In this document: positions 2,304 through 7,941 of the stretch, piece by piece | How positions within the stretch are numbered: the first letter of the stretch is position 1 | Layout: every line of letters starts with the position of its first letter | Assembly (NCBI GenBank): GCA_958450365.1 | Contig: CAUEEP010000736.1 | Location: 558,001-622,000 of the forward strand | Direction of reading: 5' to 3' | Source: Mesorhabditis belari | Taxonomy: Eukaryota; Nematoda; Chromadorea; Rhabditida; Rhabditidae | DNA length: 64,000 bases | The notes under the pieces: model-generated | Databases searched by the model: none | Told to the model about the DNA's origin: nothing | Seen by the model: only the letters and a program-made list of their open reading frames with translations | Translations under genes and position numbers: made by a program

Positions 2304-5300
2304 TTAGAATTCGGCCTCGAAGTTGTTCATAATTTCCATCTGATGAGTCAAATCGATTGCATTGCCCATCATTTCACGCTTCCGTTTCTCCTGCTCACGT
2401 AAACGTTGCATCTAAATAAAACAAATTAATTACGCAAGTTCAGAAGATCTTTTAATAGCGATCTACAAAATCTTAGAAGTACTACCTGAATACGTTCCTC
2501 CTCAGCACTTAATTGAGGTGGCTGTGCTTGCGTTTCTTTGGCTTTACGACGTCTCTCCTCTTCGGCCAAAAGCATTGCCTTCTAAAGGAAGTCAAATATA
2601 AAAAAGTTTCTTATTGTTAGTGTTACAATATCTTTCAGCTTCCCACAAGTTTTTACCAATTCAAAACGGGCGTTAACATTTCTTTTTAAAAATGGCATCA
2701 CAACTTGTGTAGGCGCAACTCTTTGTGTCTCTTTATAATTAATTAACTATTGATTTTCACTGACCCTTTCCTCTTTCTCCTTCTGTTGCTTCTTGAAATG
2801 TTCAAATTGTTCTTTGGTGTTCAAATTGTTCTTCTTGGCGTTTGTATCAGGCAACAGTTGATCAATGATTGAACTTCCTAAAAAATAGTAATCACCACAA
2901 TAAAGAATCATCCAATTACCAATTCCAGCTGCCTGAACAGGCTTGTCGTTTTGAAGAATTGGTCGAGCACCAGCATGAACGATTCCTCGGACAGGATCTA
3001 AAAGAAAACGTTTAATTAAAGTGAAACCATTAATTACCAGCTGGTTCAGGAACACGCGGAGAAGGATTTCTTGCAACCGGTGGCTTGACTTCTACAGGTG
3101 AAGTCGACTGCTTTACGGGAACCTGAATTGATGGAGGAGTCGGCATTTTCGGCTTTCCATTCGTATGATTGGCAGCCTCGGCATTCGGCAACGGTTGATT
3201 CGGCACGGCTGGCTTTCCAAACGTATTTCCCTTCCACTTTCCATGGGTACCTAATAACAACCTAATTAATATGCTTTCAACGGATTTAATTTTTAAAAAG
3301 TTGATTTGGGTCAATCACAACACACTTAGGGAATTAAAAGGTGACTCGAAGCCTGGATTCAATAAATTTGGAGCTAAACAGGTCCTAATCATGGGCGTTC
3401 TCAAATCGAATTTGGAAACACGGAGTAGAAAAATGAAAATGCAAGAATCGAGCCTGACAAAACACGATCGCGAATTGCAAGCTAATGACTCTCAACTTGT
3501 GATTCCTCTGTTTTAGTTTTTATAAAATGTTCTGTAAAAACTTTGTTTTTCTTTGGGAGTGCTGCATGCTAAACGCGATCAGAGATCTTTGACTGACAAA
3601 CTTATTGCTTATTGAAAGATACTAAACAAATAATTTATTTACTCAAACGATTCTAATAATTAAGTAACAATGCAAAAATAGCGAAAATCAATGTTCTAAA
3701 GCAAAAGAGAAGAGGGGATCTAAAGAATTTCTGGTAAGGGGAATATGCGGAGTGAAGAGAAGTGACACGTATATTGAGGCCGAGATATCCATGGCTGAGC
3801 ATTTGGAAAATAAATTAATAAATGCACAAAGCGAAAAAATTTACAAAGACTCTCTACCCATTGAACTTCTCACCATCATAGCTCATAAAGATTCCGTGGT
3901 TTTGAAAAAGCAAGTCTACTCTTTTCAAAAAACCTATATGAGTAGAATGGAAAACGTCCAAGGGTATAGAGTAATGGTGTCTATTTATACATAGAGGGCC
4001 GCCGGGCTAACATCAATAAACATAAGATTGGAGATCAACAAGAGATCGAAAATACACGGTTAGGTATTTGGAAAACGGGGGATATTATTTTAAAGTCTGT
4101 CGAGGTAGACCAATTTAATTAAAGTATGAGCATTATCGTTCTAACCTGACTCAGAATCCGATGAGTCCGAACTTGAATCACTCCCTGAAGAAGAACTTGA
4201 CGATGATGGTGGTGGCGCCAAATTGGGAGCTCCTAAAGAAGAAATTTATTCAGTTCATCCTAAGGCAACTCCCATAAACCAAGAAAGTCAATAACTTAAT
4301 GGACTGAATACATCAAAATCTTTTAGATCAAGGTTTATGTACTCTAAAACCTTTTATCCATGCTAGTTTTTTTTCGATTTTTTTACTACTTGGTAGTAAA
4401 CATGGAACAGTTTGGTAAAAGCCTTGTGTACCAATCATTATAATATGCAATTATGCTAACACTCACGCTGTACTGGTGGTGCTGGAGGTCTCCTCTGGAC
4501 ACTGGGCTGGGCACGGTTTCTTGACTTGCACCAAGCGATGAAAGCTTCCAACTCACGAAGAGTGATCGGCTTCAAAGTTTCGAAGTCGATCTCGATTTCT
4601 TCAGGGTTGTATGCCTAAAAGAAGAAACTATTTAAACCCAGACATAAACATACCATCTTTTCCCTCGATTCAATGATTTTGACGACTTTTTGAATCTTGT
4701 CTCCAGGCAATTGGTTGATCTCAAGTGACAAATTGCGTTTCTCATCGTATGACATTGGCGGGTGCTCATCACCGCTATCAAAAACGTACTCCGTTCGCCA
4801 TTGTTCCTAAATAGTCATTATGTACAAATCAAAAATGATCTTTTACCTTCTTTGGAAGACCATTCTCCTCAACCTTCGGCTTATTTTTGCTTCCAGGCTT
4901 ACGACCACGCCCAGATTTGACAGGAGGAGGTGGGGCCACATCAACCGACGGTTGTTTGGCAGTAGTTCTTGCTCGTGACCTCGCAAAATCCATTGGGCTT
5001 TCTTCACGGTAGCTTTTTCTTGGAACACTCCTAGCTGCTGGGCTGACTGTCGAAGTAGCCATCACTTGATTCAGCAATTCTTGCAATTGGGTGACGAGAT
5101 GTGTAGGAATCGGAGGCTTGCCAGACATCCTGTTGTCGGATCTCTTCTGGCGAATTTCGCTGAGTTCTTGTCCGACTCGTTGCAATTCGATGAGTCTCCG
5201 TTGGGTTTTCTCCAGTTCTTCTTGCACTTGAGTGCTGTAGTGGTCAATCTGATCTTCATCACCAACACCATTCGAAGTCGACACCTTAAACACGTATACT

Positions 5301-7941
5301 TTAGCTTTATCAGATATTTTAACTTGTGACTAAAAATATTAACCTTCAACTCCTGTGGGGCAACGTTTTCGACTGGCGCAGTTGCCGCCAGAACCGTTGG
5401 CCATTTTGACTTCACGTAGTTCATCATCTTCGTGGCCAAAACATAGATCGCATCCCCTTTTGGATTGTACTTGTGGCAATTTCCAACCATCAGTTCGATG
5501 TCACTCAAGAATTCCTCGTGCGAAACATACTGTCTAAAATATTTTTTGTAATTTGAAGAAGAAGGCACTATTCACTTGTAGTCAAATTTCTTCTTTATTG
5601 TGCTGAGGTCCATTGGTTCATCAATTTTGTCGTAGTAGTCAAAAAGTTGAAGGGCCTCAACATCGACAGGTTTTGTGAAAGGCCAATTAAATTCCTAAGC
5701 CAAGAATAACATTTATTGTTTTAACACTATCTACCGCGTTTTTCTTTGAATTGATATCGGCAAGTAACTTTTGGCAGGCTTTCAGTTGTTCAGACAACTT
5801 TCCTTTCAATCTTGGAGCCATGCTAGGATAATCAGGAGGCACGTAGTTCCGTCGTTTGCGAGCCGGTTGTGGCTAAAAATAAAAGTTTCTTTAGTGAGCA
5901 TTCATTGGATTATTCTTTAATAAATTTTGTGCTTCCTTCTACCCTTCTAACGGCAAAAATTTTATTTAACTTACTGGTGGAGGAGGCTCTGCAGCAACTG
6001 GTTCCACTTTCCGCTTCACTCCTTTGCTTTTTGCTACAGGAGCAGCTACATGTACGTCTGAGGTTGATGCCTAAATCAAAACTAATAAATACAGTGCTAA
6101 GCCAATCTTACGTTCTGCATTTCATGATCAAGAGCCAACGGGCTTGGAACTGGTCGAGAGACGGATATCGAAGATTCTCGAGAGACCGCTAAAACTTTAA
6201 ATTACTATCTACCAATTATCGCTTAAATATCATCCCGATTTACGAATGCAAGGCAATCGAGTTTACCGGTCGCACCTCTAGTTGCATTATGGAACATATC
6301 AAGGTACTTCAAGTCGTCCGAACCTTTCGAGCTGCTCGATCCTGCCTTTGCCAATCCACTAGCACGCTTTGCCGAACTCTTTTGGGGACCACGCTTCGGC
6401 CGAGGAATCTCGATTTCCTGTAAAAGAAACCATCACCAAACACAATAAAAGCAAGCTTTGTATAATATTATGTTTTGGAAGTGTTATCATCTGGCAAATA
6501 CAAAAAATATAAATATAAAAATGAAGGAAAACAAAAATTCTTATTTCAACGCGATGATAACACTTTGTTTGTCGCTTTGTTCGTCTTCTTACTATCACTA
6601 CATACTCCCAAGCCGAAGGTATCCTTTTTGACTTAGATTCTTAAAAGAGTTCATGGAGACTACCTCAGATGGCATGGTTTTTAGTTTCTCGCGTACGAGA
6701 TTCTCCACATTACGGCACATCAAAGACACGTCATCCTCGGCTTGGTTGAATGAGTAACAGTTGTTGAAGACGGTATGGATGTCCTAAACAGAAATACTCA
6801 CTGTTGCTGGCATTCCTTCGCAGCGATCCAAAATTAGCTGCTCGAGATCTTTGGCCATAGTGACTACTCCATAATGTGGCGGATTGTACGTGTAGCAATT
6901 TGTGAACATCGTATTTATATCCTAACCAGAAAATTTTTTGATGGTTTCATACGCTATGAAAAGTATGAAACACATATTAACGCACCAAAATGCAGAGACC
7001 CCGCTGACTCATATTGTTTTTGAAGATTTAAGGCTTCTTTCATACAACATCAAATGATAAAAAGTAAAAACAGCAAAGTGCAGAAGGGTCTCCGTGAACG
7101 GCTCTTTACACCGACTAAAGTTCTGACCAAGCCGCCAACATCATGCATCAATACTTAAAAAAATTGTAATTCCCTTTTTTGAAAAGTTAGAATATTAAAA
7201 AAAATTGCATAAAACTGGAGGCAATAACAATTTCATGTCTTCTTTTCACTTACATTCATGCACTCGACGGCTGTGTAGTAGTAAAAGTTCTTGAGGCGCT
7301 TCTCGATTGTTGCCAAATCCATCGGCCTCTTCACAACATTGTGGTAGTCCTGAATTAAAAATAGAGTCAATTACCTAATAGACATTTCAGTAGTAACCCA
7401 TCCAAGAAAACCGACCGCGAGTCCAAGTTCGATAGCATGAACGGGCTTTGTAAACGGCCAGGCGTGCTTGTGCTTCAAGGCATGCTTCATGACGTTGTTC
7501 AAGATAAATTCGAGCTGATTGGTGTGTCTCGTTGGCTTTCCGACTGGTGGTAGTACCCGTGGCTGAACAACGCCGCCGACCGGTTCCTAAAACAGTAAAC
7601 TTGGAATGATGATATCAGAATACGTACAATAACAATAAGGACTTTTGTAAATCCAAAAGTGCAAAGAGCTTTACTTTTCGAGTTGCGCTGATCGATTTAA
7701 AATTTAAATCGATCAGCGTCACTTTATTTAGTCATACCTGTCTAGGGCTTTTCCATGGAGCCAGCAATTCTTGAATCTCTTCAGCGGTTTCTGCTTTGAT
7801 CGTTGGCTGTTCGCCCTCCTCGAAGCCATGATCCTCTAAATCCTCTAAAAATAATTGACCAACGCAAACTATTAAGCCACCTTGTTCGTCATGTGGTTCG
7901 GAGGACTCGATTTCTTCGTTTTTGATGTCCCCTTCACTCAT
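2304..7941 (-). CDS. bet-1: BET family double-bromodomain chromatin reader
   Basis: BET proteins bind acetylated histone tails in the nucleus and recruit transcription elongation factors. Exons, in coding order: 7738-7941, 7586-7416, 7349-7254, then either 6921-6802 or 6783-6664, 6417-6276, 6188-6112, 6070-5975, 5872-5735, 5694-5576, 5533-5344, 5284-4847, 4806-4654, 4614-4467, 4232-4146, 3250-3038, 2997-2920, 2877-2765, 2581-2486, 2411-2304; all phases agree and give about 928 residues. Bromodomain 1 (about 90-197) has the WPF shelf and NCYxxN. Bromodomain 2 (about 325-437) has [12 protein letters not shown] and NCHKYN. The ET domain spans about 598-690 ([32 protein letters not shown]), followed by a Ser/Asp tract. 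The charged C-terminus ending NNFEAEF resembles the P-TEFb-interacting C-terminal motif of BRD4 long forms. A 36-nt GT-AG segment in the first exon (12 codons, phase preserved) may be a further intron. Confidence 0.95.
3251..4145 (-). other. Long BET intron, no gene seen
   Basis: This intron is about 895 nt between the Ser/Asp-rich exon and the exon that follows. Open frames on the plus strand here show no recognisable domain and no splice context, so I treat the stretch as intronic. Confidence 0.7.
6664..6783 (-). other. bet-1: BET alternative exon B (bromodomain 1, C-terminal half)
   Basis: This is a 120-nt, phase-0 exon beginning [10 protein letters not shown] and containing FNQAEDDVS and ending TMPSE. 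It has an acceptor (TCTGTTTAG) and a donor (GTAGTC). It is homologous to exon A and interchangeable in frame. The Asp-Asp pair after the pocket Asn is typical of first BET bromodomains; the Tyr before the Asn is replaced by Phe. Confidence 0.85.
6802..6921 (-). other. bet-1: BET alternative exon A (bromodomain 1, C-terminal half)
   Basis: This is a 120-nt, phase-0 exon beginning [10 protein letters not shown] and containing YNPPHYGVV and ending GMPAT. It has an acceptor (CTGGTTAG) and a donor (GTGAGT). It encodes helix alpha-B/BC loop/alpha-C of bromodomain 1, with the pocket Asn kept and a Val at the gatekeeper position. The NPP..VV signature resembles second bromodomains of animal BET proteins. 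It starts 18 nt upstream of exon B. Confidence 0.85.
7686..7718. repeat. Perfect 13-bp inverted repeat in BET intron 1
   Basis: CGCTGATCGATTT and AAATCGATCAGCG are separated by 7 nt and lie in the first intron of the BET gene. Confidence 0.8.

Follow-up and report, generated by a model that had tools for sequence, protein, structure and literature searches.

Two versions of one bromodomain piece: a paired exon in nematode BET genes and a probable splice switch in the acetyl-lysine pocket

Can one gene for a chromatin reader carry two versions of the same acetyl-lysine pocket? The question is raised by a 64,000-nucleotide (nt) stretch of the Mesorhabditis belari genome (assembly GCA_958450365.1, contig CAUEEP010000736.1, positions 558,001 to 622,000; hereafter the window). 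Its minus strand carries a bet-1 orthologue of the BET family in which two adjacent exons, A and B, encode the same piece of the first bromodomain (BD1). BET proteins contact acetylated histones through their bromodomains and contribute to holding the proper genes active within a cell lineage. We consider it highly probable that A and B are ancient tandem duplicates of one 120-nt exon, used as alternatives in the chromadorean BET gene and swapping part of the pocket. This reading is built on the anatomy of the pair, its conservation, the residues that differ and a relative's junction from A to the next constant exon. It would imply that M. belari uses both exons, that their choice is regulated and that the two products differ in binding.

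As modelled, the gene occupies 4143..7941 of the window and encodes BD1, a second bromodomain (BD2) and the extra-terminal region. The deposited protein P0003 carries PF00439, PF17035 (the extra-terminal region) and PF17105, and both the model and P0003 have the two bromodomains plus extra-terminal region of a BET protein. The constant exon E4 (7254..7349, minus strand, as are all features below) encodes the middle of BD1, aligns with 13 rows from other nematodes and ends with VECMN in phase 0. It is followed in the model by a 332-nt intron (6922..7253), exon A (6802..6921), an 18-nt gap (6784..6801), exon B (6664..6783), a 246-nt intron (6418..6663) and the next constant exon, E5 (6276..6417), which starts in phase 0. 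Reading and translation of the sequence confirmed the predicted pair of adjacent 120-nt, phase-0 exons (A 6921-6802, B 6783-6664), each with AG before it and GT after it. Each exon encodes the last part of helix B, followed by the BC loop (NPPHYGV in A, NQAEDDV in B) and helix C; the two are identical at 14 of 40 residues.

The gene model is 715 residues long with either exon and stays in frame, at 675 residues, without both. Scored with Pfam Bromodomain, the domain reaches 71.2 bits when it includes A, 66.4 when it includes B and 45.0 when both are missing, and it exceeds the Pfam cut-off with A and with B. Either exon completes BD1, as had been predicted. Given these scores and the orthologues of both exons in other nematodes, the pair is not a chance resemblance. 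An assembly artefact or a purely local duplication was ruled out by the recurrence of both types in other nematodes.

The gap between the exons (6801-6784, gtgagtatttctgtttag) comprises the donor of A (gtgagt) and the acceptor of B (tttctgtttag), and reading through it gives VSISV and then the predicted in-frame TAG. The 12 constitutive introns of the model are 36-234 nt long, the shortest after the 36-nt intron being 39, 40, 40, 41 and 42 nt. The gap thus lies below the intron minimum of this gene, in agreement with the original prediction, which had put the shortest introns at about 36 nt. Because 18 nt is far below any intron of the gene, splicing from the donor of A to the acceptor of B is very unlikely in M. 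belari. Four outcomes remain: only A, only B, neither, or a composite A-gap-B exon with the TAG, which would form if both outer sites were used; a productive mRNA would run from E4 through A or B to E5. The claim that such an mRNA must hold A or B therefore stands against the composite, which carries the TAG, but not against skipping of both exons, which is in frame.

The exons recur in other nematodes, where the original prediction had proposed to look for them. A protein search with the A form retrieved 53 homologues (49 from nematodes, one from a tardigrade, P0048, and three others, P0044, P0052 and P0055). Nineteen have an A-like piece only (three from the Enoplea Trichuris and Trichinella, and the tardigrade, among them), 16 have B only, 15 have both and three have neither, the last class including P0052, which is really of A type but starts inside the exon. 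In the 15 proteins with both types, B begins exactly 40 residues past A in 11, A is truncated in three, and five residues lie between the two in P0044. Repeating the search with the B form as query gave 24 matches, none new relative to the first, and scans of prokaryote and of viral contigs found no nematode DNA. Both types are present in Spirurina, Rhabditina and Tylenchina, so that they recur across Chromadorea, and B is present in Plectus (Plectida). Clade placement was looked up for one species each, including Trichuris and Romanomermis as Enoplea.

In annotations of related species, one type or the other stands between common flanks (eight pairs compared). Wuchereria A and Brugia B are identical at 75 of 75 upstream, 14 of 40 inside and 10 of 10 downstream residues; the corresponding values are 75, 12 and 10 for Parascaris A and Ascaris B, and 75, 11 and 9 for Parelaphostrongylus A and Angiostrongylus B. 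In the other five pairs, 73, 71, 69, 66 and 34 of 75 residues agree upstream, 12-16 of 40 inside, and 9, 0, 7, 8 and 10 of 10 downstream. The upstream value of 34 comes from comparing M. incognita sequences with each other without gaps, and the downstream value of 0 belongs to Steinernema, whose A model continues into the end of B. Wuchereria has A alone in P0012 and A plus B in P0148. In the four Caenorhabditis (the C. elegans sequences as far as printed, and proteins of C. bovis, C. japonica and C. auriculariae) only B was seen, joined straight to the constant half, and unannotated A exons were not searched for. The proteins of the Enoplea Trichuris, Trichinella and Romanomermis have one A-like piece, in genomes that were not searched for a B exon.

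Residues are given in BRD4 numbering from an alignment anchored on Asn140, in agreement with PMC10726358. We compared first and second copies by order, free of type labels, in the 13 sources in which both are complete (P0034 and P0053, with incomplete A, are not counted). At position 144 the first copies have Tyr, Phe or Ser (Asp in 0 of 13), whereas all 13 second copies have Asp. Position 145 is Asp in all second copies and in 2 of the 13 first copies, being mostly Gly in A. Positions 141, 142, 147, 148 and 150 differ between copies in every source, and Asn140 and Met149 are identical in every one. Residues 141-147 together have a charge of 0 or -1 in A, against -3 or -4 in B. Since position 146 is Val or Ile in both types (Val in both M. 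belari exons), the gatekeeper is not the switch. Exon B had been predicted to carry the Asp-Asp of first bromodomains, and it does: in M. belari it keeps N140, E143, D144, D145, V146, M149 and C150 and is identical to Plectus B at 28 of 40 residues. The ZA loop and the WPF shelf lie in the constant part, unaffected by exon choice.

On this constant scaffold, the choice of exon would exchange the last part of helix B together with the BC loop and helix C, changing position 144 from Tyr, Ser or Phe to Asp and position 145 from, mostly, Gly to Asp. According to PMC10726358, every BET BD1 domain has Asp144 and every BD2 domain has His instead, a difference used by BD1-selective ligands. The swap resembles that between Asp144 and His437 of BRD4 in falling on the residue that separates the two BET domains. 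Here, unlike in BRD4, splice forms of a single domain differ from each other, and Tyr, Ser, Phe or Cys takes the place of His. These comparisons support a pocket swap at the level of residues. The two isoforms would most likely favour different acetylated partners, and exon choice may in this way retune which acetyl marks are read.

Asn140 is present in 25 of 26 A rows and in 37 of 37 B rows of the tree alignment, counts that are partly circular because the A and B labels of single-exon proteins were assigned by similarity. The single exception is the A-type protein P0028 of Bursaphelenchus xylophilus, in which Asn140 is replaced by Cys (NCFTYC); this form may have lost ordinary acetyl-lysine binding. 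In two Ditylenchus A pieces (P0030 and P0054), NEESETGVY and NEEADVGVY stand in place of NPPxYGVY.

Exon A had been likened to second BET bromodomains. Taken whole, exon A of M. belari is of BD1 type, scoring 100-118 against six outgroup BD1 pieces and 46-95 against five BD2 pieces. The gene's own second bromodomain was ruled out as the source of exon A, the score against that piece being 46 (55-95 for the four others). The likeness holds in part for the A pieces of Wuchereria and P0044, which score higher against human BRD4 BD2 (105 and 103) than against BRD4 BD1 (95 and 95), but their top score is with Trichinella BD1 (124 and 127).

The tree was built from 74 rows and 40 columns, a number of columns with low resolving power. 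The tree, like the 26 and 37 counts, omits P0003, P0034 and P0053, in which A is truncated (their B pieces likewise, except that of P0034), P0030 and P0054, whose A is longer by one inserted residue, P0052 together with the A pieces of P0170 and P0172, which begin inside the exon, and P0148, P0164 and P0023, which share their species or source with other rows or come from near kin. Of the non-nematode matches in a search that listed 120 of its 146 matches, five were used as outgroups and the rest left out. Chromadorean A and B together separate from Enoplea, arthropods and vertebrates with support 99/99, a long tardigrade branch lying among the A rows. B together with a long M. belari paralogue has support 98/79, and B alone 53/74. 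The data do not reject a single A clade (p-AU 0.62). On average, A pieces are 63% identical to one another (26 rows), B pieces 64% (37 rows), and A pieces to B pieces 35%; to ten outgroup rows the mean identity is 49% for A and 36% for B. Given B in Plectus and the one A-like piece in Trichuris, Trichinella and Romanomermis, the simplest history would have the exon duplicated a single time at the base of Chromadorea, B being the derived copy. That the pocket-rewriting splice switch itself arose once there, before the Plectus split, and was kept in many lineages is the history we favour, with some reserve.

Open reading frames from other sources run through A, gap and B. Deduced from residues rather than from DNA, their gaps are 15 nt in P0164 (VSSFQ), 18 nt in P0170 (VSSSFQ) and 36 nt in P0172 (VSSYVYSDYCLQ), the last not clearly under the intron minimum. 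As these sources were detected as open frames, they are uninformative on how often the gap holds a stop. P0164 and P0121 presumably come from one 1,774-nt contig, where the sequence runs on unspliced past the end of B and past that of E4. The 83-residue A-gap-B piece of P0164 recurs without any change in P0044, which resembles complementary DNA (cDNA): both outer junctions are made and the 15-nt gap is kept as part of a composite exon, while a later intron is seemingly retained. P0052 is a protein of 622 residues from an intronless, cDNA-like 2,030-nt contig in which A is joined straight to E5. The steric exclusion put forward originally fits M. belari and two other sources (18, 15 and 18 nt) as far as a join of A to B is concerned, but it does not prevent the composite, as P0044 shows. 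Taken together, the cross-species comparison, the A-to-E5 join in P0052 and the 18-nt gap speak strongly for mutually exclusive use as the probable arrangement, as had been predicted.

Splice signals were scored with a model built on the 12 introns, which penalises CAG acceptors. Donors score 8.1 for exon A and 1.2 for exon B (GAG/gtagtc), against a constitutive range of 6.2-8.9, and acceptors 9.9 and 7.2, against 9.1-15.1. Two constant sites, the donor of E4 (5.7) and the acceptor of E5 (4.0), lie beneath the constitutive ranges as well, so the score is only a rough guide. It suggests that exon A would be the default and that exon B would need help. Two features of the flanking introns are leads only, namely a TGCATG at 7147-7142 in the upstream intron (one occurrence there, nine on the plus strand of the window) and a perfect 13-bp inverted repeat in the downstream intron (6479-6491 / 6553-6565), which could draw the weak B donor closer to E5. 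Despite this one perfect stem, the RNA structure of the downstream intron is not unusual (z -0.24). A repeat origin of the flanking introns was looked for with two stretches, the upstream intron and 6470-6575, each of which had one genome match, itself.

Several observations weigh against alternative use or against the swap. The weak donor and low acceptor of B may make its inclusion rare in M. belari, and within Mesorhabditis exon B was found in the M. belari genome alone. Deposited P0003 fuses the first 19 residues of A to the whole of B, although this fusion breaks the domain and is likely a gene-prediction error. Eleven annotated proteins fuse full A to full B without a gap, which if real would add 40 residues; we think that these are automatic models. 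P0044 indicates that joint inclusion is possible where the gap is free of stops. The three gaps outside M. belari come from open frames, which excludes gaps that contain stops. The transcript-like data comprise P0044, P0052 and the printed C. elegans coding sequences, none of them from M. belari. The Ditylenchus A pieces, with a one-residue insertion in the BC loop and an acidic residue near position 144, are an exception to the clean contrast between the types.

Four other explanations were weighed. Were both exons normally included together, directly or with the gap between them, the protein would have BD1 plus an extra half-domain. The direct join in 11 of 53 proteins and the P0044 molecule (A, five residues and B, with the outer introns removed) speak for this. 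However, the composite meets a TAG in M. belari, a direct join there would require an 18-nt intron, and 35 of the 53 proteins (including the three from Enoplea and the tardigrade) have one type only; with P0052 running from A straight to E5 and Caenorhabditis from the constant half straight to B, we regard joint inclusion as very improbable. The composite could instead be the point of the arrangement, a balance between A or B and the TAG-containing A-gap-B form tuning the amount of BET protein through transcript decay or yielding a BD1-only protein of about 190 residues. Such a role is suggested by the TAG in M. belari and by the composite in P0044, but no stop interrupts the gap in the three other sources with a readable one (a biased sample, found as open frames) and the maintenance of two different pockets would be left without explanation. 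We think it quite unlikely.

A different possibility is that in Mesorhabditis one exon works and the other, B or conversely A, is a fading relic, in which case M. belari would have no real switch. The weak B donor fits this, as does the A type of the Mesorhabditis-like proteins P0004 and P0052, and loss of one member seems to occur, given B only in the four Caenorhabditis. Yet M. belari B retains its length, frame, GT and AG sites and B residues, with 28 of 40 positions shared with Plectus B, and both types recur in three large groups (Spirurina, Rhabditina, Tylenchina); a relic is unlikely on these grounds. Finally, alternative use could be real and the swap neutral, both versions reading the same marks; Asn140 and Met149, the WPF shelf and the ZA loop are common to the two. 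We doubt this neutrality, while allowing it some weight, because Asp at 144 in 13 of 13 second copies against 0 of 13 first copies, the difference at 141, 142, 147, 148 and 150 in all 13 sources and the 63-64% conservation within each type are hard to square with interchangeability.

Pairs of exons held apart by an intron that is too short, or by a branch point that is too close, are known from alpha-tropomyosin exons 2 and 3 and similar cases. As in that gene, the donor of A and the acceptor of B are too close together (18 nt); in M. belari, unlike there, composite inclusion seems possible, and exclusion is deduced from sequence. Another precedent is coq-2 of C. elegans and other rhodoquinone-making animals, in which, according to PMC7434440, exons 6a and 6e are equal-length internal exons, spliced alternatively and found helminth-wide, one of them resembling the exon of other animals and one special, with diagnostic residues kept near the substrates. 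The same paper puts the mutually exclusive exon events identified in C. elegans at fewer than 100. In coq-2 the swap is in an enzyme core and the pair is present in C. elegans, whereas BET is a chromatin reader and the C. elegans sequences seen have only the derived type. We found no nematode BET exon pair in the literature, among the matches listed, in a search that left most subscription journals and all gene database pages outside. We call the BET case a known splicing arrangement applied to the pocket of a chromatin reader.

C. elegans BET-1 is an orthologue with the same lead-in to BD1, and the coding-sequence starts of bet-1A, B and C printed in PMC9835578 all carry a B-type piece; these isoform letters are unrelated to exons A and B here. 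If our reading is correct, many nematodes would run two BET readers from one gene, which could thus have either of two ways of reading chromatin depending on stage or tissue, and C. elegans BET biology would cover the derived form only, the Caenorhabditis seen showing that form alone. It would also explain why the switch is not seen in the standard model worm. Some ligands would be predicted, from the difference at Asp144, to act on one isoform only, and in other worms only half the isoforms would be hit by BD1-selective compounds that depend on Asp144. JQ1, a BET inhibitor, was tested on adult Brugia in a study whose main text does not use the word 'isoform' (PMC6890932). Among the homologues, the name 'Bm4523, isoform k' suggests curated Brugia isoforms.

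The paralogue that groups with B in the tree is a diverged BET-like gene in the same genome (L004 1-3120, G000:C568:836119-839238). The exon pair was looked for in it and not found; a single 120-nt exon with the motif NCSLYN lies at the corresponding place. The last exon of the present model is cut short, since P0003 extends into more 3' exons. The first intron (7880-7836, minus strand) is 36 nt long or, with the acceptor implied by P0003, 45 nt, a difference of three residues. E5 apparently has two donors, both in frame: P0003 and P0052 leave it at SSSSK, and M. spiculigera P0004 continues through KYLDMLHNATR, in agreement with the present model.

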